Shown here: positions 1-19,574 of the stretch, piece by piece | Numbering within the stretch: the stretch's first letter is position 1 | Layout: every line of letters begins with the position of its first letter | Assembly: GCA_018607905.1 (NCBI GenBank) | Contig: JABBAP010000007.1 | Span: forward strand, 1 to 33,929 | Source of the DNA: Paracoccaceae bacterium | Lineage (GTDB): Bacteria > Pseudomonadota > Alphaproteobacteria > Rhodobacterales > Rhodobacteraceae | Length of the DNA: 33,929 bases | Reading direction: 5' to 3' | Position numbers and translations under genes: made by a program | Notes under the pieces: generated by a model | The model's input: the letters and a program-made list of their open reading frames with translations, nothing else | Database searches by the model: none | Told to the model about the DNA's origin: nothing

Positions 1-53
1 GAAAACCGTTGAGGTTAACGCCTCCCAGGGTTCGAATCCCTGTCTCTCCGCCA
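1..53 (+). tRNA. tRNA-Ser, 3' part (5' end outside window)
   Basis: Bases 26-42 form a T arm (CAGGG stem, TTCGAAT loop, CCCTG stem). The acceptor 3' strand TCTCTCC, discriminator G and encoded CCA follow at 43-53. The long variable arm (GAGG at 11-14 pairing with CCTC at 21-24) is the class II feature that marks Ser/Leu/Tyr tRNAs, and the acceptor end fits Ser. Bases 1-2 (GA), followed by AAA and the stem strand ACCGT, look like the last two anticodon bases. That would make the anticodon NGA, reading UCN codons. The anticodon call is inference because base 34 lies outside the window. Confidence 0.88.
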
Positions 54-60
54 CTTTAAG

Positions 61-87
61 CAATTGTTATTGAAGAATTGTTTTCTT
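61..87 (+). terminator. weak candidate terminator after tRNA-Ser
   Basis: CAATT at 61-65 can pair with AATTG at 76-80, followed by TTTTCTTT. The stem is only 5 bp and all but one pair is A-T, so this is suggestive only. Its place right behind the tRNA is the main support. Confidence 0.3.
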
Positions 88-447
88 TGAAGGCATTGTG
101 AATCGAACAAGATTGGCCGTGCCAAATTTCTGAATTTCTTGCTTAAATTGTCCTTAAATGCAGCTCATTTACCACCAACCTCTGTTCGGTGAATTGTGCG
201 ATGTCGTTTTAGCTTGCGAAGGGAATCTAAATTAACGGTGCCGCGCGATTTGGCAGTCGCTAATGCACTCAATGAATATTAATAGCTTCTTTCCGAAGAT
301 CCTTGCGCAGCGGCGGGTTATTTCATCGATTGTTAGGTAAAGCCCTAGCGTTGATTTTTTGAAACTATATAGGTTTCGAGGGATTTACCTTCAAAGACAT
401 CAACAAGTCCCAGATCGTTTAGGCGCTAACCTTCATTGCAAATAAAA
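88..447. other. intergenic stretch without recognisable gene
   Basis: I find no reading frame in this stretch that resembles a known protein on either strand, and no obvious structured RNA. It separates the tRNA-Ser from the 3' end of the decayed purine operon. The only pattern noticed is a TTAA-N7-TTAA site at 143-157. Confidence 0.5.
143..157. promoter_or_regulatory. CtrA-box-like sequence
   Basis: TTAA-ATTGTCC-TTAA matches the TTAA-N7-TTAA consensus of the alphaproteobacterial cell-cycle regulator CtrA. No intact gene lies next to it. About one such match is expected by chance in a window of this size and AT content, so function is doubtful. Confidence 0.2.
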
Positions 448-487
448 AACCGCCGAACAGGGCCTTGAATTCAAGTTATGGTCGGTT
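448..487 (-). terminator. candidate Rho-independent terminator of the decayed purine operon
   Basis: On the minus strand AACCGACC (487-480) pairs with GGCGGTT (454-448) with one bulged A. The loop holds its own palindrome, CTTGAATTCAAG (464-475). A T run (449-444) follows the hairpin. It begins about 20 bases past the stop codon of the adenine deaminase relic, where the terminator of that operon should be. Confidence 0.45.
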
Positions 488-508
488 CCATTCGACGAAC
501 GTGTCCAG

Positions 509-805
509 TTAGGATTGCAAGTCAACGAATTCTTTTGCAACGTCGACTACCAGTTTTACACTGATCAAACCAGCAACAAGGTGCGTAAGTCTGGAGACAA
601 CTTTGTAGTCCGTAACAACAATTTGCCCGCCCTGCATTTCACACAACGTGTTTGCGGCGGGAGCCATGTCAACGGGATCGCGTCAAAATACAGTAGTAAG
701 GTTATGGCTGTCATGTGCAACGGTCGTTCCATACGCGCCACGCCCTGTGCTCCAATTTGCTATTAACGCAACCCGTATCAGCTTGTTACGACCGTAACGA
801 AGGCA
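509..805 (-). pseudogene. adenine deaminase, C-terminal relic
   Basis: Translating the minus strand from about 805 down to the TAA at 511-509 gives one frame with a single internal stop (TGA near 671). It reads like the C-terminal part of adenine deaminase. Visible features are GTTVAHDSHNL (the family's conserved AHDSHN motif), then DPVDMAPAANTL, GGQIVVTDYKVV, and VAGLISVKLVVDVAKEF where intact enzymes have the PIAGLMSD-type motif. The N-terminal metal-binding amidohydrolase part is gone. Adenine deaminase turns adenine into hypoxanthine. Upstream the frame runs straight into nucleoside hydrolase-like residues, so a deletion seems to have joined the two genes. The identification rests on motif memory, not on a database search. 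Confidence 0.72.
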
Positions 806-1203
806 AACAGCCATGCGGATCAGGCGCGTAATGGTTTGGGCAAGATCAAGATGTGATTGCAACAGCGGTGCTATCTTGACGAGTGGGCCGATTGCTAAGA
901 TGACTCGTCGTTCTTAGTTTTGTGCCGCGCACCCGAGCCCCAAGGGCTGTGATGGCATCTTTAACACGATCTAAAGTGCCGCCATTTGGCAGATATTGGC
1001 CAGAACTTTGCCCGCAGCACCTCCCCCGTACAAATTGCCAAGTCAAATTCATAAGTCCGCGGCGCCCCTAGCGCGTTTGCCACCATTTGATTCAACGGTG
1101 TTTTGCCCGCCACGATTGAAACGCCAGCGACACGCGCACGCATCACCAGAAACGCCCACAGATCATCAAATCCAAAATCGATTTCGTCCCAGAATTCGCT
1201 CAT
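805..1203 (-). pseudogene. nucleoside hydrolase (IUNH family), frameshifted and truncated relic
   Basis: The minus frame starting with ATG at 1203 shows EIDFGFDDLWA, close to the Ca-binding DxDxGxDD motif of inosine/uridine-preferring nucleoside hydrolases, then VAGVSIVAGKTPLNQ and VANALGA. These match the first ~50 residues of the family. Near 1030-1040 the similarity moves to another frame (DRVKDAITALGARVRGTKL). It shifts again near 845 to a segment resembling the LGPLTNIA region (LDLAQTITRLI). The last two thirds of the protein is missing. Such enzymes split ribonucleosides into base and ribose, which fits the neighbouring adenine deaminase relic. The ATG overlaps the TGA of the upstream ATPase relic (ATGA), a typical operon junction. 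Confidence 0.72.
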
Positions 1204-1421
1204 GCGCTAAACGGTCTTGCGCTCGACTGTGGCATTTCCAAGCGCAACGGCGCGTATAGGTTTGACCGCGGTTCATCTAGCAGCAACCCCTTTGACTCCA
1301 TCACCAAAGAGTGCGCTAACGCAACGCATTGTTGTTGGCCCTCTGACATTTCAGCAAGTTTGCTTGATTCAAATGCGATTAGACCAATAAAGGCAATTCC
1401 TGCATCGGTTAGTGCACTAAT
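1199..1421 (-). pseudogene. ABC transporter ATP-binding subunit, internal fragment
   Basis: One open minus-strand stretch encodes EMSEGQQQCVALAHSLVM, a degenerate ABC signature (normally LSGGQQQRVALARALV). LLLDEPRSNLYAPLRLEM follows, a Walker B and D-loop region (normally LLLDEPLSNLDA). The Walker A half is absent, and everything after the D-loop is lost before a TGA that overlaps the next ATG. The type resembles the ATPases of polyamine-like importers (PotA/MalK group). It sits between a permease relic and a nucleoside hydrolase relic, as expected for an uptake operon. It is non-functional because both the nucleotide-binding P-loop and the H-loop are missing. Confidence 0.75.
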
Positions 1422-1439
1422 TTTGGTTTAGGTCATCGG

Positions 1440-1860
1440 TACCATGGATCCCTCAAAATGGCGGGTGTGATATACGCCGTTAACGCACCGTGAAAACAAG
1501 CGTGCCATCATTGACCAAACCTTCTTTAGTGAGCGGCAAGATGACTTTGAAAAAGACTAGAAGCCAATTTGTGCCTAAGGCAAGCGCCGCAGGAATAACG
1601 CCACGTGGGGTATTTTCCATCGCAGACAGTAGTGAGAATATCATCAAATGCATGAAAAGCTGCAACGGACCAAGGAAGATCCAGTTCGTTGAAAGTAGGC
1701 AAATGGGGATTTCAGACAGGCCAAGCCCAACGATCGTATCATTCACGATTTCTGCGCGCTCCAGATTACCGATCCATGTACAGGTTCGGGCTTCAAGCGA
1801 GACCAATTACGATAAAATGACAAGTCTTAACACCCACCCACGCGCATTGGATGCCATTGA
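1440..1860 (-). pseudogene. ABC transporter permease (PotB-like), relic
   Basis: The minus frame shows ERAEIVNDTIVGLGL, then hydrophobic segments, and then ENTPRGVIPAALALGTNW with FFKVILPLTKEGLV. This is the EAA loop through which such permeases contact the ATPase. The expected continuation (ALTAYITPAILRDPW, compare the family's LGAYVTPALLGGP) is found one frame over, beyond a stop near 1480. A second stop lies at about 1809-1807, upstream of which the frame still looks hydrophobic (VLRLVILS). The N-terminal membrane segments and the extreme C-terminus are missing. It is followed immediately by the middle of an ATPase gene, so a large deletion removed the rest and any second permease. Confidence 0.75.
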
Positions 1861-1862
1861 TG

Positions 1863-1988
1863 TTAGGCAGGGCTGTATTCCCAGTTAGCTTTATCTAGCA
1901 AATCCATCAGGCTGATATTTTCTATAAAATCAGCGCGATACACAATTGAACTGGCACAGCACGTATAACCAACCACAAAATTCCCACT
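1863..1988 (-). pseudogene. possible solute-binding protein fragment
   Basis: A 41-codon open minus stretch contains SSIVYRADF and SLMDLLDKANW. These recall the segment of PotD-type periplasmic binding proteins where a Tyr-x-Thr-Asp strand precedes a 'SWADL(W/L)DP' motif. Its place between the regulator relic and the permease relic is where a binding-protein gene would be expected. The match is short and could be coincidence. Confidence 0.35.
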
Positions 1989-1994
1989 GACTAG

Positions 1995-2895
1995 TTCTTA
2001 TGCAGCTGCATAAAGTTTGCTCTGGTTTGACAATTCGGCAAGGTTCGCTTGAATTGGATAAGTCGGTCGATTGCTAGGCTGGCAATTTTTTCGACATCTT
2101 GCACCATGGCCGAAAGTTTAGGATGCCTTTTCGTGGGGAAAGGCAGATCATCAAATCAAGTAAGGCTGACATCGCGCGGAGCAGCGATTCCAAATCCCAT
2201 AAGATGAGAATGGACAAGTGGCGACAAAAAATCAGTTGCGGTCATGATGGCGGTAGCACCAATTTTGATCGCCAGGATAAGCAGTTTAATGCCGTCCGCG
2301 ACCCAATAACATTGCACGCTTTTAGGTATTGGAAACCCTTGGTGCATGCCGTCTACACGATCCTGTTGCACTTCTGAAACGCAGTCCTTCGCCCAGGATC
2401 ATTAGATGGGTGAGCCTCAGATTTCCAACATGTTCGGCAATCATCTTGTGCCATCCGTATGATCGGCGCTGTCAAGATTATAGGCGGCGATGATGGTCAC
2501 CGTTTAAACACGTTGTAACCAAGGTGCAGTGCCTTTTCGGGGGCACGATCATTCGGTCATTAACGCCCTGTTCAGCAGCTAATCGATTGCTTGTGTTTAC
2601 TCGTCGGGACTACTCCGTGAATCCGCAAAAAGAATGCCGAACTAAATATCATCTGCCGCCAAGGACAAATGCTGCTCGACGTTTGGGAAAAGTGGGTTGC
2701 TTAGATCGGGCATCACTAACCCTAGGATACTCATTGCTGAGCGCGCCCTGCAGGGCGTGGACGGGAGCCAAGATCGCTCGCGTACTTCTTTATCCGCTCT
2801 ACCATTTCTGGTGTAACGCGACCTTTGCTGGTTAAGATATTCTCGCCAGTGTCGACAGACACGCCTTTGCATTCGGCTTTCTTTATATATTGGTA
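1995..2895 (-). pseudogene. LacI-family transcriptional regulator, relic with many stops and frameshifts
   Basis: Nearly the whole protein can be pieced together on the minus strand. The helix-turn-helix and hinge region is at 2880-2735 (GVSVDTGENILTSKGRVTPE, then MVERIKKYASDLGSRP). After a frameshift comes ILGLVMPDLSNPLFPNVEQ at about 2730-2675, the start of the effector domain. FGILFADSRSSPDE and AIDxLL follow with stops between them. In another frame are MIAEHVGNLRLTHLMILGEG and then VQQDRVDGM. Near 2240-2170 lies GATAIMTATDFL, then PRDVSLT-stop-FDDLPF and LSAMVQDVEKIASLAIDRLI. I count at least eight in-frame stops and several frame changes. It probably controlled the decayed transporter operon downstream. 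Control of the adjacent dehydratase is also possible. Confidence 0.82.
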
Positions 2896-3115
2896 ATGAT
2901 GATCGCCCCCGATCCCAAAATTTTAGGTAAGCACGCGGGAGCGATTCAACAAATTTGATAAATGAATTAACGTCAGGGGACTTCTTCGGTCGTAATACAA
3001 CGAACCGAAAAGCCGTTGAAATTGCGAAGTAATAAACGCGCAACTTTGCCGGTCGCGTCGCAAAGTTGGGTTCGTAAAAGGATCCGCCTTTAGGGGGTCG
3101 ACCTTCAAATTTGGA
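2896..3115. other. gap between dehydratase stop and LacI relic
   Basis: I recognise no protein remnant in these 220 bases in any frame. This is where the promoter region of the former LacI-led operon would have been, or the 3' flank of the dehydratase gene. Confidence 0.4.
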
Positions 3116-4915
3116 TTAGTGATTGTTACGTGGGATGTGTTTTTGCGCAATCCGTTGGTATTTCGGGGCGTCGCGCAGGGTCATGCCTTCGGAAAACGGT
3201 CCTGTCAATTCTCGGAAATATTGCTGCCACGGCGATTGGCTTTCTGGGGATGCATAGCCGCCTGCAGCTTGCAAAGCATCATGGCGCGCAGCAATTTCTG
3301 TCTCGTCCACGATCATATTTACGGTGCAGGCATTCAGATCAATTCGGACGCGGTCGCCGTTTTGCAGGATCGCAAGGTTACCGCCTGCGGCCGCTTCGGG
3401 GGATGCGTTCAAAATTGAGGGCGAGCCTGACGTGCCAGATTGACGTCCATCGCCAATGCAGGGCAGTGATGTTATGCCCTTTTTAAGCAGATAATTTGGT
3501 GCACGCATGTTCACGACCTCTGCGCCGCCTGGGTATCCAAGCGGACCAGCACCGCGCATAAAAAGCATCGAGTTTTCTGTAATGTTCAGTGACGGATCGT
3601 CGATCATTTTATGAAAATGCTCTGGCCCGTCAAATACGATGGCTGACCCTTCAACCGCATTGAGATCGTCTGGGGCAATGAGGTAGCGATTGCGAAATTC
3701 CTCCGAGATTACAGAGGTCTTCATAATAGCGCTTTCAAAGATGTTACCCGTTAAATTGATAAAGCCGGCTTCGGGCAACATAGGGGCAGAAACTGGCCAA
3801 ATTACATCGGTATTCTCGATTTCGACTGCCGCGCAATTTTCGGCCATTGTACGTCCGTTTGCGGTGACAACATCAGGATGTGGAAGTAAACCCGCGCGAA
3901 TTAATTCACCAGTGACCGCTGGAACCCCGCCGGCACGGTGGTAATCTTCGCCTAAGTATTCGCCAGCAGGCTGCAAATTCACCATCAGAGGGACTTTATG
4001 GCCAATGTCTTGCCAATCTTGGTTATCGAGCGGCACATTTAGATGGCGCGCAATAGCGTTTAGATGGATCGGAGCATTAGTTGATCCACCAATGGCAGAA
4101 TTGATAACGATGGCGTTTTCGAACGCTTCGCGGGTCATAATATCCGATGGTTTTTGATCATCCCAAACCATATCAACAATGCGACGCCCTGTTTGATAGG
4201 CCATTTGACCCCGCTCACGGTAAGGGGCTGGAATGGCGGCAGAGCCAGGCAATTGCATGCCAAGGGCCTCGGCCAAAGAATTCATCGTGCTGGCCGTACC
4301 CATTGTGTTGCAATACCCCGTCGAGGGCGCCGAAGAGGCAACTAATTCGACCATCTCGTCGTCATTAATTTCGCCTTTGGCATGGAGTTCGCGTGCCGTC
4401 CACATGATGGTGCCAGAACCCGTGCGTTTTCCTTTGTACCACCCATTCAACATCGGGCCGACGGAAAATGCGATGGCTGGAATGTTCACTGTGGCCGCGG
4501 CCATCAAAAGCGCTGGTGTAGTTTTGTCACAACCGATGTTTAAGACAACTCCATCGATGGGGTACCCAAAAAGAGTTTCAACAAGCGACAAATAGGCCAA
4601 ATTACGATCTAACATCGCCGTGGGCCGCTTTCCTGTTTCTTGGATGGGATGCACTGGGATTTCGATCACTGTGCCACCTGCGGCGATCACGCCGTCGCGC
4701 ACACGCTTGCTCAGCTCGATATGGTGGCGGTTACAAGGCGATAGATCGCTGCCTGTCTGGGCGATGCCAATGATTGGTTTTCCTGATGTTAACTCTTCGC
4801 GTGTTAGGCCGTAATTCAAATATCGCTCCAGATAAAGTGCAGTCATTTCCATGTCATCTGGGTTGTTGAACCAAGTTTGGGAACGTAAATCGGTTGTTTT
4901 TTTGGCTTTAGTCAC
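3116..4915 (-). CDS. IlvD/Edd-family sugar-acid dehydratase (D-xylonate dehydratase-like)
   Basis: This intact 599-residue enzyme belongs to the IlvD/Edd dehydratases. These remove water from sugar acids or dihydroxy-acids to give 2-keto-3-deoxy products, using an Fe-S cluster and Mg. Cluster cysteines are visible in SDLSPCN (C61), IGCDKTTP (C129) and [13 protein letters not shown] (C202). [13 protein letters not shown] carries the catalytic serine region. The opening [12 protein letters not shown] and the ending in RNNH resemble Caulobacter XylD more than IlvD or Edd, which suggests xylonate or a similar aldonate as substrate; that is inference. I prefer the GTG at 4915: it gives the family's usual N-terminus and has AAGG upstream. 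An ATG at 4936 would add seven residues and has no ribosome site. No other pathway gene is nearby, and a dead LacI regulator lies just downstream. Confidence 0.88.
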
Positions 4916-5085
4916 GATGAAATGAACCTTTATCATTATGTTGGATCTAGAGTGCCGCCATTAGCGGGATTGGTAAAGACTGGAATGACGAAAGTGCGAA
5001 ACATTCGTTTGAATATTCTGTGCTGTTCGTGTGTTATCCCAATAACGCGCTATGAGTTGGACAATAAATACCAAAGGAATCTTAC

Positions 5086-5586
5086 ATGTTATTTTCACCT
5101 TCTAAAATCACAGCGCTCGTTGGGGTGGCATTGTTGTTGTCTGCGTATTCAATTTCGGCGCAAAGCACGGCTGAAACTGAAACGAGCGACGATGCCAAAG
5201 TTGAAACGCCAATTGTTGAATCGGAAACTACTGTTGATGACGCAACTGCAGAAACGGTGATCGCGGTGATTACTGGTGATGTGAAAAAGGGTAAGAAAGT
5301 CTTTAAGAGATGCAAAGCTTGTCACAAAGTTAAAGAAGGAAAGAATGGTGCGGGACCGAGTCTTTACAAAGTTATTGGACGTGAGGCCGCAAAAAACGAC
5401 GGGTTTAAATATTCCACTGCAATGTCAGAATCTGGTTTGACGTGGGATGTGGCAACCTTAACGGAATACTTGAAAGCGCCAAAAAAACTGGTGCCCAAAA
5501 CAAGTATGTCGTTTGCTGGCTTGAAAAAAGACAAAGATATTGAAAACGTGATTGCGTATCTAGATGATGTTTCCAACCAAGAATGA
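5086..5586 (+). CDS. class I c-type cytochrome, exported
   Basis: The 166-residue protein starts with a signal sequence (about residues 1-25, ending near SISAQS). A linker of roughly 40 residues rich in Thr, Glu, Asp and Val follows, and then a single haem-c domain. CKACH (C76-H80) is the covalent haem site. M141, in KTSMSFAG, is the likely sixth iron ligand. The size and the GPSLYKVIGR segment fit cytochrome c2/c550-type electron carriers of the periplasm. AGGA stands seven bases before the ATG. It is divergent from the dehydratase and convergent with the bactofilin gene, with a shared terminator in between. Partner enzymes cannot be read from the context. Confidence 0.9.
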   Translation: MLFSPSKITALVGVALLLSAYSISAQSTAETETSDDAKVETPIVESETTVDDATAETVIAVITGDVKKGKKVFKRCKACHKVKEGKNGAGPSLYKVIGREAAKNDGFKYSTAMSESGLTWDVATLTEYLKAPKKLVPKTSMSFAGLKKDKDIENVIAYLDDVSNQE

Positions 5587-5602
5587 CAGCAAACTCAAAT
5601 TG

Positions 5603-5635
5603 AAAAGGGCCCTGAACTTCTGAGCCCTTTTCGTT
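5603..5635. terminator. Rho-independent terminator, probably bidirectional
   Basis: AAAAGGGC (5603-5610) pairs with GCCCTTTT (5624-5631) around a 13-base loop. The A and T runs at either end let it work for the cytochrome gene (plus) and for the converging bactofilin operon (minus). Confidence 0.75.
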
Positions 5636-5657
5636 CCGTACAAACCAATTTGTAGCT

Positions 5658-6173
5658 TTAAGTCGCTGTTTTCGGGATTGGTTTTGTGTCAGATTTTGAG
5701 TTAAGCGGATCTTCTTGACGTTGGACAGACCCTTCGAAATGCGCGCCGCTTTCGATGGCGATCGTTTTATGGATGATGTCACCTTCTACCCGCGCGCTTG
5801 ATGTGAGGCGTACCTTTAAGCCACGTACGCGTCCTATGACACGGCCATTCACGACAACATCGTCTGCTACGATTTCGCCTTCAACTGTGGCACCTTCACC
5901 GACTGTCAAAAGGTGGGCGCGAATGTCACCTTTGATCTTGCCTTCGATCTGGATGTCACCTGTTGTTTTTAGGTTCCCAGTGATTGTCAGGTCAGTAGAG
6001 AGCGCAGATGCAGGCGGTTTGGCCTTTGGCGGCGCTGCTGGGGCAGGGGCGGCTGATGATGCCGGTTTTGCCGCAGGTGCTGTCGCTGCTGGCGGCATTG
6101 TCGCCGCTGGCTTGTTTGCATCCGCCGCGGGATCGGATTTGTTTGTTTCGCTGATTTTGTTTTTAGAAAACAT
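5658..6173 (-). CDS. bactofilin family protein
   Basis: The 171-residue protein has an Ala/Pro/Lys-rich N-terminal tail (about residues 15-58). The central domain (about 60-150) has repeating short hydrophobic/Gly strands such as GNLKTTGDIQIEGKIKGDI and VEGEIVADDVVVNGRVIG. This is the right-handed beta-helix pattern of bactofilins (DUF583). Bactofilins polymerise without nucleotide into filaments at the inner membrane and recruit cell-wall enzymes. The gene starts 11 bases inside the end of the upstream M23 peptidase gene, so the two are translationally coupled. Paired bactofilin and M23 genes are known to act together in cell-shape control in several bacteria. Confidence 0.92.
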   Translation of the reverse strand: MFSKNKISETNKSDPAADANKPAATMPPAATAPAAKPASSAAPAPAAPPKAKPPASALSTDLTITGNLKTTGDIQIEGKIKGDIRAHLLTVGEGATVEGEIVADDVVVNGRVIGRVRGLKVRLTSSARVEGDIIHKTIAIESGAHFEGSVQRQEDPLNSKSDTKPIPKTAT

Positions 6174-7500
6174 TTCGTGCTGCCTTCATGTATTTAGAGG
6201 GGTTAACTGCTTTTCCATTAATGCGCACTTCGTAGTGAAGATGCACGCCGGTGGACCGGCCCGAGTTGCCCATATCACCAATTCGTTCCCCGCGCGAGAC
6301 CCTTTGTCCCAGCTTGACCCGAATTTTGTTCATATGGGCGTAATAAGTTTCGTAACCACGGATGTGGCGGATTTTTACCAATCGTCCGTAGCCGCTTTGA
6401 CGTCCTGCGAAGGTGATGACGCCGTCACCTGTAGCGACGATGGCTGTACCACGTGCGCCAGCCAGATCATGGCCTTTGTGCAATCGGCGGCCGCCAGTTT
6501 TGGGATCGCTACGGTACCCAAAACTTGAGGTATGGCGATATCCACCACGCACTGGAAACGCGAGCGGAAGTTTTTCGACAGCTAATTTGGTTAAGCCAAC
6601 TCGGTCCAGCCGATCAAAAAGATCCGATGTCTTAGGCGACAAGGTCCCAGCGGCAACGCCTTTTGTTGAGATGGACAGGGCAGTAAGCGGGCCACCCGTA
6701 CCAGAATGGGATTTGCGCAACTCGTTGATGAGGCTGTCTTTGTTTATGCCAGCGTTGCTAAGCGCGCGCTCTAACGGGCCCAAGGTTACATTTACGGCCT
6801 GTTCAAGATTGGCAAAAATACGGGCGTTACGCTGTTGTTGTAACAGGTGCTCGTTCGACATTTCTGCCATTTGGCCATACAAATCGGTTGCAGTTGTTTC
6901 CAGATCGTCGCGCTGCGCGACTGTGTTTTTCAAAGCCCGGGTCAAATGTGACAATGTATCTTCATTGTCTTCTGCGCCACCGAGTTTGGTGTTCAGGCTG
7001 CCCGTGACCGCCTGCATTTCTGACAGAATAGAATCAGATTGCTTCTGCGCAACATCCCGCTCTTTGATCGCAACTTGCAATTTCTTTTGCATGATGTTGA
7101 GGCCGGTTGCCAGTTCGCGGCGTTCCTCCTCGGCCTGAAGCAGTTCGCTTTGCTGTAAAGAAATCTGTTCCAGTGCGATGTAAAACCGATCTTGTGCTGT
7201 TTGGGTTTCAAGCGCGCGCTGATCGCGTTCTTGGCTTAGCTCGTTCAAACGGGCTTCGTAGGCGCGTTGCAAAACTTCGGCTTGTTTTGTGTCTGATCGT
7301 GCTGAAATATGGTCAATCAAAAGCGCAGAGGTCGCAATAACCGACCAGCATACCCCAATAGTAATAAGGGCGCCTGCGGTCGCTTGAAGCAGCGGCGTCG
7401 CTCGGAAGTACCGAGTGGTGCGCTCTGTCCGCATGTAAATGCGTTGTTCGGGCACATGACGTGCCAAAAGAGCGTTTATTTTTTCAAACGGTCCGTTCAT
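6163..7500 (-). CDS. M23-family cell-wall endopeptidase with membrane anchor and coiled coil
   Basis: The 445-residue protein has a short cytoplasmic head, one membrane helix (about residues 38-62), a long heptad-like charged region (about 65-170), and a C-terminal LytM/M23 domain. The zinc site is complete: HKGHD (H341, D345) and HLH (H420, H422), with FGYRSDP and GDMGNSG as further family marks. It should cut peptide crosslinks in peptidoglycan on the periplasmic side. The N-terminal part resembles the DUF5930 region of Rhodobacterales M23 proteins. The ATG at 7500 has GAGGG upstream; an upstream extension to 7569 lacks a ribosome site. It is the first gene of a two-gene operon with bactofilin. 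Confidence 0.93.
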   Translation of the reverse strand: MNGPFEKINALLARHVPEQRIYMRTERTTRYFRATPLLQATAGALITIGVCWSVIATSALLIDHISARSDTKQAEVLQRAYEARLNELSQERDQRALETQTAQDRFYIALEQISLQQSELLQAEEERRELATGLNIMQKKLQVAIKERDVAQKQSDSILSEMQAVTGSLNTKLGGAEDNEDTLSHLTRALKNTVAQRDDLETTATDLYGQMAEMSNEHLLQQQRNARIFANLEQAVNVTLGPLERALSNAGINKDSLINELRKSHSGTGGPLTALSISTKGVAAGTLSPKTSDLFDRLDRVGLTKLAVEKLPLAFPVRGGYRHTSSFGYRSDPKTGGRRLHKGHDLAGARGTAIVATGDGVITFAGRQSGYGRLVKIRHIRGYETYYAHMNKIRVKLGQRVSRGERIGDMGNSGRSTGVHLHYEVRINGKAVNPSKYMKAARNVF

Positions 7501-7577
7501 GAATTTTCCCTCTGCCTCTGTATTCTCGCACCCTTTTCCGGGGCCATTTTTAGGCTTATTTAAGAACACGTTATGGG

Positions 7578-7622
7578 TTTACAAAAACTGAGGCAGCCGC
7601 GCAAGAAATTCCTGCGCCGCTG
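7578..7622 (-). terminator. candidate Rho-independent terminator of the bcp-DUF455 operon
   Basis: CAGCCGCGCA (7594-7603) pairs with TGCGCCGCTG (7613-7622) at nine of ten positions. On the minus strand the hairpin is followed, after six bases, by TTTTT (7586-7582). It starts 34 bases past the DUF455 stop. Confidence 0.5.
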
Positions 7623-7655
7623 GCAGTAAATCGCGCATTTTTGCGCAGTGTGACG

Positions 7656-8468
7656 TTATTGGACTGCCATTGGCCAATAAAAATCCAAGGGAATTCCAGC
7701 TTCTGCTCGTTTTTCATCGTTGAACGGTGGCTTTAGTCCACCGTGGAAATATTGTTCGACAAGACGGTGAAATTCGACCTTCGGGTCCTTGTTGTGACGA
7801 CCACACAGAAAGTGGAACCATTTTGATCCATAGGCCACATGGCCAACTTCCTCCGCGTAGATAATTTCAAGCGCGGCAACGGTCTCTTTGTCTTTGAACG
7901 ACTTAAATTGCTGGATCATATTGGGCGTCACATCTAATCCGCGGGCTTCTAGGACCATAGGAACGATTGCCAAACGCCCCATGAAATCGCCGGCCGTGTC
8001 TTGGGCTGCCCGCCACAACCCAGCGTGGGCTGGAAAGGCACCGTAAAATGATCCCATTGCTTCAAGGCGATCCACTAACAAATTGAAATGTTTACTTTCT
8101 TCGTCGGCGGCTTTTACCCAATCATCAAAATAACCCATTGGCATGTCTGTATTGGAAAAGCGTGGAATAATGTCCCAGTGCAGATCAACGGCGTTCAATT
8201 CAATATGCGCGATGGCGTGAATCAATGCGCACCGACCATCAGGGCTCCCTAACTTTCTGTGAGGAACTTCGTTTGGCGGCAAGAGGTCTGGTTTTGCCGG
8301 TCGCGCGGGATCATTTGGAGGCTGGCTGTTACCAATATCCAACGGTGTTCCTGCCTCTTTCATTTTGAACCAAAGGGCTGCCGCTGCGTGGGATTTGGCG
8401 GTTTTCTCGCGCCCATCGGCAGTGTTCAGCACGCTACAGGCGAGTTCTGTGAGGGTTGGTTGGTTCAC
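7656..8468 (-). CDS. DUF455 ferritin-like protein
   Basis: The 270-residue protein has the layout of DUF455, a ferritin-like diiron family of unproven function. Candidate metal ligands are seen in HAIAHIELNAVDLHWD, ADEESKHF and EIIYAEEVGHVAYG, the Glu/His-bearing helices of a four-helix bundle. Length is typical. It starts with GTG, whose last bases overlap the TGA of the upstream bcp gene (GTGA), so the two are co-translated. Pairing with a peroxiredoxin hints at an oxygen- or peroxide-linked role, but that is inference. Confidence 0.87.
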   Translation of the reverse strand: MNQPTLTELACSVLNTADGREKTAKSHAAAALWFKMKEAGTPLDIGNSQPPNDPARPAKPDLLPPNEVPHRKLGSPDGRCALIHAIAHIELNAVDLHWDIIPRFSNTDMPMGYFDDWVKAADEESKHFNLLVDRLEAMGSFYGAFPAHAGLWRAAQDTAGDFMGRLAIVPMVLEARGLDVTPNMIQQFKSFKDKETVAALEIIYAEEVGHVAYGSKWFHFLCGRHNKDPKVEFHRLVEQYFHGGLKPPFNDEKRAEAGIPLDFYWPMAVQ

Positions 8469-8926
8469 GCTGATTGTACCGCGTCAAGCACAGCCTCTAC
8501 ATGATTAGGCACTTTGACCTTGTTCCATTTGTGTGTGATCACGCCGTCGCCATTGATCACAAAAGTTGCGCGCTCAATGCCCATGTACGTCTTGCCGTAC
8601 ATGTTTTTTTCCACCCAGACGCCCATATCTTCGCAAAGTGTGCCGTCTTCGTCAGATGCTAACGCGATGCCTAACGCATGTTTCGCAACGAATTTGTCGT
8701 GGCTTTTGACGCTGTCTTTGGACACGCCTAAAATTTCAGCACCCGATGCCTGAAAATCTGCCAGATGTTGTGTGAATGATATGCTTTCTGTTGTGCAACC
8801 AGGGGTGTCGTCGCGAGGATAAAAGTACATCACGAGTGTTTTGCCTGCATAATCCGCAAGGGATACAACGCCTCCGCCATCTCGTAGTAAAGTAAAGTTA
8901 GGCGATTTTTCTCCGATTTCGGGCAT
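8465..8926 (-). CDS. bcp: thioredoxin-dependent peroxiredoxin, Bcp type
   Basis: The 153-residue protein has the AhpC/TSA fold of Bcp/PrxQ peroxiredoxins. YFYPRDDTPGCTTE contains the peroxidatic cysteine C44, and the C-terminal VPNHVEAVLDAV is typical of the group. It reduces hydrogen and organic peroxides in the cytoplasm with electrons from thioredoxin. The resolving cysteine that E. coli Bcp has five residues on is a serine here (S49, between E47 and F51 in TESISF). C98 is the only other cysteine, so the enzyme is either 1-Cys or resolves through C98. It is transcribed divergently from the YhdP-like gene. Confidence 0.93.
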   Translation of the reverse strand: MPEIGEKSPNFTLLRDGGGVVSLADYAGKTLVMYFYPRDDTPGCTTESISFTQHLADFQASGAEILGVSKDSVKSHDKFVAKHALGIALASDEDGTLCEDMGVWVEKNMYGKTYMGIERATFVINGDGVITHKWNKVKVPNHVEAVLDAVQSA

Positions 8927-9056
8927 TTGTCCCCCTAAGTGACGAAAATTTGTTACGCTAAGCCTATGGTTTGGCAGCTACTTATCCTAAATAGGGTGGA
9001 GCCGTGGAATTCAAGCGCGGAATACTGTTGTAAGCTTTGAAAAGAGCGGAGTTGAT

Positions 9057-12000
9057 TTGATCTGGATCAGGCATTTTTTGGTGGCATCACTGGCTATTCT
9101 GATGGCAGGTATCGTATTGACGGTTCTGGCAATTGGTGTGGTGACCGTATTGCTCCAACGCGGGCCACTTGAATTACCTCAACTGCGCTCTTCTGTTGAG
9201 GATCGTATAAATACCCAAATAAAGAACCACGACGTGAAGATCGGAAGCATCGCTTTGATGTCGAGCGAATCGGGAATCGGAAACCGTGTTCTTTTGAAGG
9301 ACGTTGTCGTTTTAGGGGAAAATGGGGAGCAGTTGATGGCAGTGCCAGAATTGCGTACGCGGTTTTCCTTGCTTGATTTGGTGAATGGGCGAATAGCACC
9401 CGAGGACGTTTCGATAATTGGCACTGAGTTATCCTTGGAGCGAGATGAGAACGGCACGATTAGTCTTTTTGGATCAGGCAAAGGCGTCGAATCTGGTTCG
9501 AATTTTTTAGAGCTGTTTGATGCGCTCAATGAGCAATCAGGTTTGGCCGCATTGACAAGTGTAGAGCTTGAAAACACGCGTGTTACGTTTCGCGATCGTA
9601 TGACCGAACGAGGATGGGTGTTGGATAATTCGGCACTGTCGATAACGCGCGACGGCGAAACAGTTTCTGGTAGGGCAGTTTTGGAATTGGGCGAAACGGG
9701 CCGCAATGTTCAACAATCTGCAACAATGATCTTGAACGCGACCTATTTGCTGGGTTCAGAAACTGCCTCCGTTTCATTTCAATTCTCGGATGCATCGCCA
9801 ACAGAAATTGCAGATCTTTTCCAAGCGTTTGATTGGTTGCGAAATCTTGATACCCAATTATCTGGGTCTGTGCGCGCCGACTTGTCTGGGGATGGCAAGT
9901 TGGGGAATTTGCACGGTGTTTTGGAAATGGCCGAAGGAAAATTGACCGAAACGCCAACCAGCCAACCAATCCAATTTAGCACTGCTAAAGTTTATTTTGA
10001 TTACGACCCGGTCTCCGATGCTTTGAACCTCGAACAAGTTGAATTGAAAACGAGTTCTGGAGGCGTTCGTGCCAGCGGCTTTGTTGAGCTACAGCGAAGC
10101 GAAGCTGGGACAGTTCTTTCGATGGCGGGGCAATTACGGCTGCGCGATATTCTTATTCAACGCCCCGATCTTTTTGATGCTGACGTAATTTTACCGGAAG
10201 CAGCACTTGATGCGAGGTTGTCGTTTTCGCCGTTAAAAATTGACGTCGGGCGGTTAACAATTTTCGACAAAGATAGCGTCGTAAAGATTTCAGGAATCTC
10301 AGAAGCGACAGATGCGTTTTGGAACAACAGCTATGACGTGGATATCGACAAGATGAATGTCGCACGTCTGAAACAGCTGTGGCCAATACCCGTGGTTGAT
10401 AAGACCCGCAGCTGGGTCACGGAGAATGTATTTGCAGGCCAGTTTGTCGGGTTTTCTGGCGGTTTTCGGACCGAAAAGGGCAAGCCAGAATTTGCCTTTA
10501 ATTTTGGGCTTGAGAAAGCCAACTTTAGATACGTCAATAAACTGCCGCCTTTGGAAGAAGGCGATGGGTTTGGATACCTGACCGACAAAGATCTCCGTCT
10601 CGATCTAAGTTCTGGTTACGTTGTGGCGCCAAACGGTTCTAAGATCGATGTTGCTGGAACTGGTTTGTTTATTCCTGACATCAATGCGCACCCGACACCT
10701 GGTGAGATTACCTTTCATGCCAAAGCAAGTTTGCAAGCAGCGTTAGAGTTGTTGAACGTGGAGAAGTTTAAGTTTCTGGATAAAGTTGGGCTTGAGCCTA
10801 ACCTCGGCAAAGGGGCCGTTTTAGTCAGCGGTTGGTTCAAATTGCCGTTAGCAAAAGACGCTAAAACAGAAGATGTAGAGATGGAGCTGAACGCACAGTT
10901 GTTGAATGTACGTTCCGAGGTTTTGATAAAAGATCGCGTTTTAACATCTCGCAGGTTGGATGCTTTCATTACACAAGATGGGATTAAATTGGCAGGTGAA
11001 GCGAAGCTGGATTCCGTTCCTTTAAGCGCGATTTGGGAACAATCATTTGATAAGGATCAAAAGCAAAGCAAGATTGCTGCGAAAGTGAACATCACGGATA
11101 AAAATCTTCGTGCATTTGGAATTATTTTGCCAACTGGAACGCTCGCGGGCTCTACACCTGCGTCGGTCGACGTATCGCTGAAACGCGGGCAAGCGCCCAG
11201 TTTTCAACTGAGCACCAACCTTTTTGGGGCATCGTTGCGTATTCCGGCGCTTAGCTGGGCCAAAGCAAAAAATACAAAAGGTCAGTTTACAATCGCAGGG
11301 ACGTTGGATCGTCAAATAGACATAGGTGATCTGTCGTTTAGTGCACCAGGGCTAAAGGCGACGGGAACACTTGATCTGAACCCAAACAACAGCTTGAAAC
11401 AGGCCCGTTTTTCATCGGTAGATGTTGGAAACTGGTTGAGCAGTTCTGCGGTCCTTACTCCAAAAGGCAAGGGGCAAACTGATATAAGCGTAAATGGGGG
11501 AACAGCAGACCTTCGCTTTCTTGGCGGTGAGGAAACATCGAGCAGTGGTGGTAGAAATAATAGCAATTCAACGATAAAACTCGCTTTGGACCGTGTCCGC
11601 ATAACCAATGAATTGTCGCTGACGAATTTTTCTGGACAGCTTAACACTAAAAAGGGTCTACGGGGTACTTTCGTGGGGCGAGTGAATGGCAGTACGCGAA
11701 TAGACGGCCAGTTGTTTCCTCAGAAATTCGGTACTGCAGTAGAGTTAACGAGTAAGGACGCTGGCGGCGTCATGGCATCGGCCGGATTGCTTACGAACGC
11801 GCGTGACGGTGATTTACGGGTGGTTTTGGTGCCGCGTTCTGGCAAAGGAAATTACGATGGCACGCTGGATGTTAAGAGAACTCGGATAAAAGATGCATCA
11901 GCGATGGCGGCGCTTTTGAACGGAATTTCGCTTGTGGGCGCGTTGCAGCAGCTTGAAGGTGAAGGAATCCATTTCTCGACAATCGAAGGCCAATTCAAAT

Positions 12001-18080: not shown

Positions 18081-19574
<1,494 letters not shown>

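Follow-up and report, generated by a model that had tools for sequence, protein, structure and literature searches.

A decayed operon with a probable role in nucleoside use beside a tRNA-Ser gene in a Paracoccaceae bacterium

Introduction

The closest annotated counterpart of the locus described here is a plasmid-borne operon of Loktanella salsilacus (NZ_CP072995.1, NZ_CP072993.1), whose annotation gives, in order, a LacI-type regulator, a solute-binding protein, two permeases, an ATPase, a nucleoside hydrolase and an adenine deaminase. All seven genes are annotated in two L. salsilacus strains, and all seven are found in the same order on pSymB of Sinorhizobium meliloti and in Ensifer adhaerens, for which the records read carry no annotation. 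Among related proteins, Atu4426 has been reported to deaminate adenine (PMC12133300), and LacI-family local regulators of the AdeR, HpxR and UriR groups have been assigned to nucleoside utilisation (PMC4052901). We found no literature on the binding protein of the S. meliloti operon.

The stretch of DNA analysed here, referred to as the window, comprises all of contig C18 (33,929 bases) from the draft genome of a Paracoccaceae bacterium, an assembly of 3.17 Mb in 76 contigs that is 95.88% complete. Near its left end, on the minus strand between positions 360 and 2865, lies what is almost certainly the remnant of a decayed operon of this type. The relic shares six gene types, their order and their strand with the L. 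salsilacus operon, which, together with that of genome G038, is closest to it by sequence (58% identity over the aligned pieces). Unlike the relic, the L. salsilacus operon is unbroken, possesses a second permease and resides on a plasmid with different neighbours. The S. meliloti and E. adhaerens operons are more distant, at 40% and 42% identity over the pieces. The relic regulator has in common with the AdeR, HpxR and UriR groups its LacI family and, probably, its nucleoside context, a resemblance that does not by itself make it an AdeR. Our preferred explanation, to which we assign a probability of roughly 85%, is that the operon was gained horizontally from a Loktanella-like source, was dispensable to its new host and decayed.

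Homology and gene order of the relic

The seven L. salsilacus proteins were compared by tblastn with positions 1-3115 of the window, with 100 dinucleotide shuffles serving as the background. Six of the seven genes were recovered, collinear with the annotated operon, and the best piece for each scored about 56 bits or more, as against a maximum of 27.3 bits for any of the seven proteins in the 100 shuffles. All matches lie on the minus strand: lacI at 2865-2057 (199 and 53 bits), the binding-protein gene at 2051-1847 (56 and 26 bits), the PotB-like permease at 1866-1454 (139 and 28.5 bits), the ATPase at 1427-1233 (77 bits), the nucleoside hydrolase at 1203-812 (64, 38 and 29 bits) and the C-terminus of the adenine deaminase at 823-360 (141 and 37 bits). 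The secondary pieces of 26, 28.5 and 29 bits are close to the shuffle level and were counted through their position in the gene order only. The PotC-like permease found no match of its own in 1-3115, its sole hit being a 33-bit cross-match to the PotB piece.

With frameshift-aware alignment added to tblastn, the lacI-type pseudogene spans 2036-2865 and retains residues 12-296 of 325. It is followed by remnants of the solute-binding protein gene (1847-2051, residues 97-165 of 339, both ends gone), of the PotB-like permease gene (1434-1866, residues 84-229 of 273), after which the expected PotC-like permease is missing, and of the ABC ATPase gene (1233-1427, residues 110-174 of 337, both ends gone). 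Last come the nucleoside hydrolase (812-1203, residues 1-151 of 302, C-terminal half gone) and the adenine deaminase (360-859, residues 426-588 of 588, amidohydrolase part gone). Neighbouring pieces overlap a little where their alignments end. As the first detectable lacI residue, residue 12, falls at 2865, the start of this gene would be expected near 2898.

The Pfam profiles point the same way at varying strength. Among ten stop-free pieces of the relic, ABC_tran was found once and Adenine_deam_C twice above the curated cut-offs (the former in the ATPase piece), BPD_transp_1 (E 6e-4) and IU_nuc_hydro (E 1e-4) were found below them, and LacI (E 0.14) and Peripla_BP_3 (E 0.09) were not significant; one piece gave unrelated weak matches only and two gave none. 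A plasmid search with positions 1-3200 gave 56 matching records, all of them covering 80% of the query or less. Two L. salsilacus plasmids ranked first, with 69% identity over 36%, and the others came mostly from Sinorhizobium.

These results bear out the gene identities, order and decay that the preliminary description had read from the minus strand, and they turn its "possible" binding protein into a confirmed one of 69 residues. Its list of six genes stands, with no mention made of the second permease, which the intact operon has and the relic lacks. Its extent of 509-2895 was about right at the right end and wrong at the left, where the relic reaches 360. The relic is real and ordinary in kind, and relatives share its layout.

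Lesions and relaxed selection

Lesions were counted in a frameshift-aware alignment to the L. salsilacus proteins over 842 aligned residues, using penalties of our choosing. In total the pieces contain 11 in-frame stops and 11 frameshifts, distributed as five and five in lacI, one and one in the binding-protein gene, one and two in the permease, none and two in the hydrolase, and four and one in the deaminase. The ATPase piece has neither, and is disabled by its missing ends only. Each of the six genes is therefore disabled by stops, frameshifts or missing ends, as had been proposed. The intact L. salsilacus operon occupies 7,327 bp (2849-10175 of locus L004) and the relic 2,506 bp, such that about 4.8 kb are missing by comparison.

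Relaxed selection was assessed by codon position over 836 in-frame codons, with L. salsilacus as the nearest sequence and G263 as the third taxon. At positions 1, 2 and 3 the relic branch has distances of 0.265, 0.222 and 0.610, and the branch to L. salsilacus 0.093, 0.037 and 0.438. A model in which the relic branch is the sum of a functional part, proportional to the L. salsilacus branch, and a neutral part equal at all positions puts the neutral substitutions at 0.19 per site; its predicted value for position 1 of the relic is 0.276. The relic codon positions thus fit a functional phase followed by neutral drift. Relaxed selection was found in all seven three-taxon comparisons (831-837 in-frame codons), over which the neutral part ranged from 0.05 to 0.19, a rough estimate with position 3 near saturation. 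The GC content of the relic by codon position, 0.546/0.415/0.490 in a codon set that is partly out of frame, resembles that of four host genes; the L. salsilacus operon, at 0.624/0.435/0.590, lies above it.

Two alternatives would spare the relic the status of a decayed operon. The first is that the fragments still function, perhaps as truncated proteins or a regulatory RNA, and minus-strand open reading frames of 108 and 133 aa do run over the permease and regulator pieces. However, the relic branch shows an excess of first- and second-position changes, the ATPase piece lacks both ends, the hydrolase is reduced to one half, the deaminase has lost its amidohydrolase part, and the window contains no Rfam match at gathering scores. 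We regard retained function as very improbable. The second is that the breaks are sequencing or assembly errors, as might be suspected of a relic near a contig end and known from the one assembly examined. Yet errors would have to account for missing kilobases and for an excess of replacement changes, while in the rest of the window, scanned from 3116 on, the genes with Pfam matches are open; for those genes this agrees with the earlier statement that everything from 3116 onward is intact and that poor sequence is not the cause. This explanation is hardly credible.

Intact operons in other genomes

A search of 295 sampled family genomes with the L. salsilacus permease (E 1e-80) matched 11, and in all 11 the operon is present in the same order, with seven of seven genes in nine genomes and six of seven above 38% identity in two. 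Of the 102 gene segments compared from 15 operons, 101 are free of internal stops. The remaining segment, lacI of G093 (L058 2516-3466), has one, which could reflect a second instance of early decay or a sequence error.

Within the genus of the host, a DNA-only search with the relic, which can miss diverged copies, found matches in 6 of 33 genomes, one of them the host's own. Of the five others, only G008 has an operon, consisting of six stop-free genes on a 9.6-kb contig; the remaining four matches are short stretches inside other ATPase genes. A search of genome contigs with the relic permease piece returned 50 pattern matches and no confirmed relative.

The locus beside tRNA-Ser

The left border of the relic interval is a tRNA-Ser(tga) gene, the 3' part of which occupies positions 1-52 on the plus strand at the contig end, as judged by alignment to the complete tRNA-Ser genes of G020 and G028. 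The window copy is the sole match to the tRNA-Ser pattern in the host genome, and ARAGORN made no call. The right border is an intact IlvD/Edd-type dehydratase gene (3116-4936, minus strand) that lies in the same place in G020 and G028. Only 7 of the 33 genus genomes, the host among them, give a strong match to the dehydratase, a gene that may likewise have been transferred or retained patchily. A dehydratase with 78% identity is also present in two metagenome-assembled genomes labelled Rhizobiaceae.

The interval between the bactofilin gene and tRNA-Ser appears to be a tRNA-adjacent site of variable content. The neighbouring DUF455 gene is present in 26 other genus genomes; its locus was examined in 12, five of which provided the tRNA-Ser locus. 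In the other seven, the stretch taken lacks both a tRNA and any operon match above 38% identity, and in four genomes that have the dehydratase (G032, G001, G003 and G027) the stretches taken contain neither the tRNA nor the neighbouring window genes. In G020 and G028, the dehydratase is followed by an intact flavin oxidoreductase of 416-417 aa and then by tRNA-Ser, and operon hits in this interval are weak and scattered (best E 0.003), amounting to no credible trace. In G004, G002 and G012, a cytochrome c, identified by Pfam in G004, and another protein that has no Pfam match lie between bactofilin and tRNA-Ser, with no operon remnants at E 0.01.

The content between bactofilin and tRNA-Ser thus differs by lineage (L026 8083-9336; L031 1044-2291; L068 4824-6686), taking three forms: dehydratase with flavin oxidoreductase, cytochrome c with the unmatched protein, and dehydratase with the operon relic. 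The host has a flavin oxidoreductase elsewhere (G000:C53:12837-14081) that is 76% identical to the G020 interval copy. The G020 gene adjoining the tRNA was not found in the host. The gene after it does have a host counterpart, which lies at the beginning of contig C16, a position consistent with a contig break at the tRNA. The DNA of 56-365 and 2856-3116, on either side of the relic, found no match among the 14 loci tried.

Origin of the operon

An operon tree was built from in-frame codons (838 columns, 16 rows). In this tree the relic, on a long branch, is sister to L. salsilacus plus G038 with 98% bootstrap support, or 96% with some lacI codons out of frame. Forcing it outside the seven nearest family copies costs 69 units of log-likelihood and is rejected by both the AU and SH tests. 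Two further placements are rejected by AU and not by SH: the relic outside L. salsilacus plus G263 (0.007 and 0.43, respectively) and the relic beside G263 (0.041 and 0.46).

The operon tree is at odds with the host tree, which is built on one gene, alanyl-tRNA synthetase, and has supports of 34-49 at several nodes among other genera. By this gene the host is 85-87% identical to G020, G028, G002, G004 and G012, and 72% identical to G038, the carrier of an L. salsilacus-type operon. The host tree splits the host's group from the other genera, whose own branching is poorly resolved. The intact copies of G038 and G263 stand together in the operon tree and apart in the one-gene host tree.

The opposing history would have the operon ancestral to the genus and inherited vertically, to decay here and be deleted or replaced in sister lineages. 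Several observations accord with it: G020 and G028 share the dehydratase border and hold another gene that might have taken the operon's place, an operon of the same kind exists in one congener, G008, and the SH test retains some other placements of the relic. Nevertheless, G008 is the only one of the five other genus genomes with DNA matches (33 searched) to have the operon, and both AU and SH reject forcing the relic beside the G008 copy (delta lnL 285) or outside the seven nearest family copies. In the next clade (G004, G002, G012), moreover, different genes occupy the interval. We therefore consider ancestral descent unlikely.

Gain followed by decay is likelier than the loss of an ancestral gene set, because the relic groups with L. 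salsilacus while grouping with the congener G008 is rejected, and because none of the five comparable relatives has the operon at tRNA-Ser. Horizontal acquisition by the host lineage is, in our estimation, reasonably probable. The operon would most likely have arrived from a Loktanella-like source and settled in the variable tRNA-Ser interval, where stops, frameshifts and internal deletions then broke it down. The preliminary description had anticipated an intact cluster in relatives at the same place; the intact cluster exists, only not there. The synteny it looked for between tRNA-Ser and the dehydratase is absent from the five comparable relatives, whose unrelated genes are an outcome that it had itself named as refuting; the homology stands.

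No mobility genes were seen among the ten Pfam-scanned pieces, and no tRNA-end repeat is among the listed repeats (1-3150). An IS110-family transposase gene (L004 152-1384) lies about 1.5 kb from the L. salsilacus plasmid operon and represents a possible means of movement.

Function of the operon and its dispensability

The intact L. salsilacus proteins indicate what the operon may have done. The deaminase matches Atu4426 (PDB 3NQB) over residues 5-587 (E 5e-196) and falls below the TIGR01178 cut-off (366 vs 472.5 bits); of this Atu4426-type enzyme the relic retains the C-terminal part only. The hydrolase belongs to the inosine-uridine hydrolase family, with RihC as its best match, below the RihC cut-off. 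The importer parts match Pot and Phn models, also below the cut-offs, and the binding protein shows a PotD/PhnS-type likeness, has no Bmp among its Pfam matches and is closest to PDB 4edp, a structure listed without a substrate.

It is the enzymes of the operon that suggest a nucleoside as the substrate of its ABC system. The source operon would have combined a LacI-type regulator, a PotABCD-like ABC importer, a nucleoside hydrolase and an Atu4426-type adenine deaminase, and when intact it most likely imported adenosine-type nucleosides. The hydrolase would then release the base from ribose, the deaminase would convert adenine to hypoxanthine, and the LacI regulator would control the operon.

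The preliminary description had suggested that the lineage lost this salvage route while keeping guaB. The latter gene is indeed present and intact at 18120-19574 of the window. A lost capacity, on the other hand, is not established, because intact genes for import, hydrolysis and deamination remain elsewhere in the host genome, and a route acquired and then lost fits better. An intact adenine deaminase on contig C8 scores above the TIGR01178 cut-off, a cluster on C49 encodes a PfkB kinase, a nucleoside hydrolase, a Bmp-type binding protein, an ATPase and two permeases, and a second nucleoside hydrolase on C68 is nearest to RihA, below the RihA cut-off. Redundancy with these retained genes is a plausible reason for the decay, and these intact host genes, unrelated to the operon, probably made it dispensable. 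More tentatively, at somewhat less than even odds, the intact operon of Rhodobacteraceae and rhizobia may encode an adenine-nucleoside importer of PotD/PhnS type, not Bmp type, and pass from lineage to lineage, the host lineage having gained it and then discarded it since the Bmp-type system sufficed.

The relic opens no new principle. With six of the seven genes still recognisable and an unbroken relative for comparison, it clearly illustrates an operon in the course of decay, and how unrelated host genes can explain an operon's dispensability. Beyond this, it draws attention to a conserved seven-gene operon for which the imported substrate is testable in the intact relatives. Finally, the host C49 cluster (L034 8162-15622) includes an unexpected member, a 2OG-Fe(II) oxygenase encoded between the hydrolase and the Bmp binding protein.
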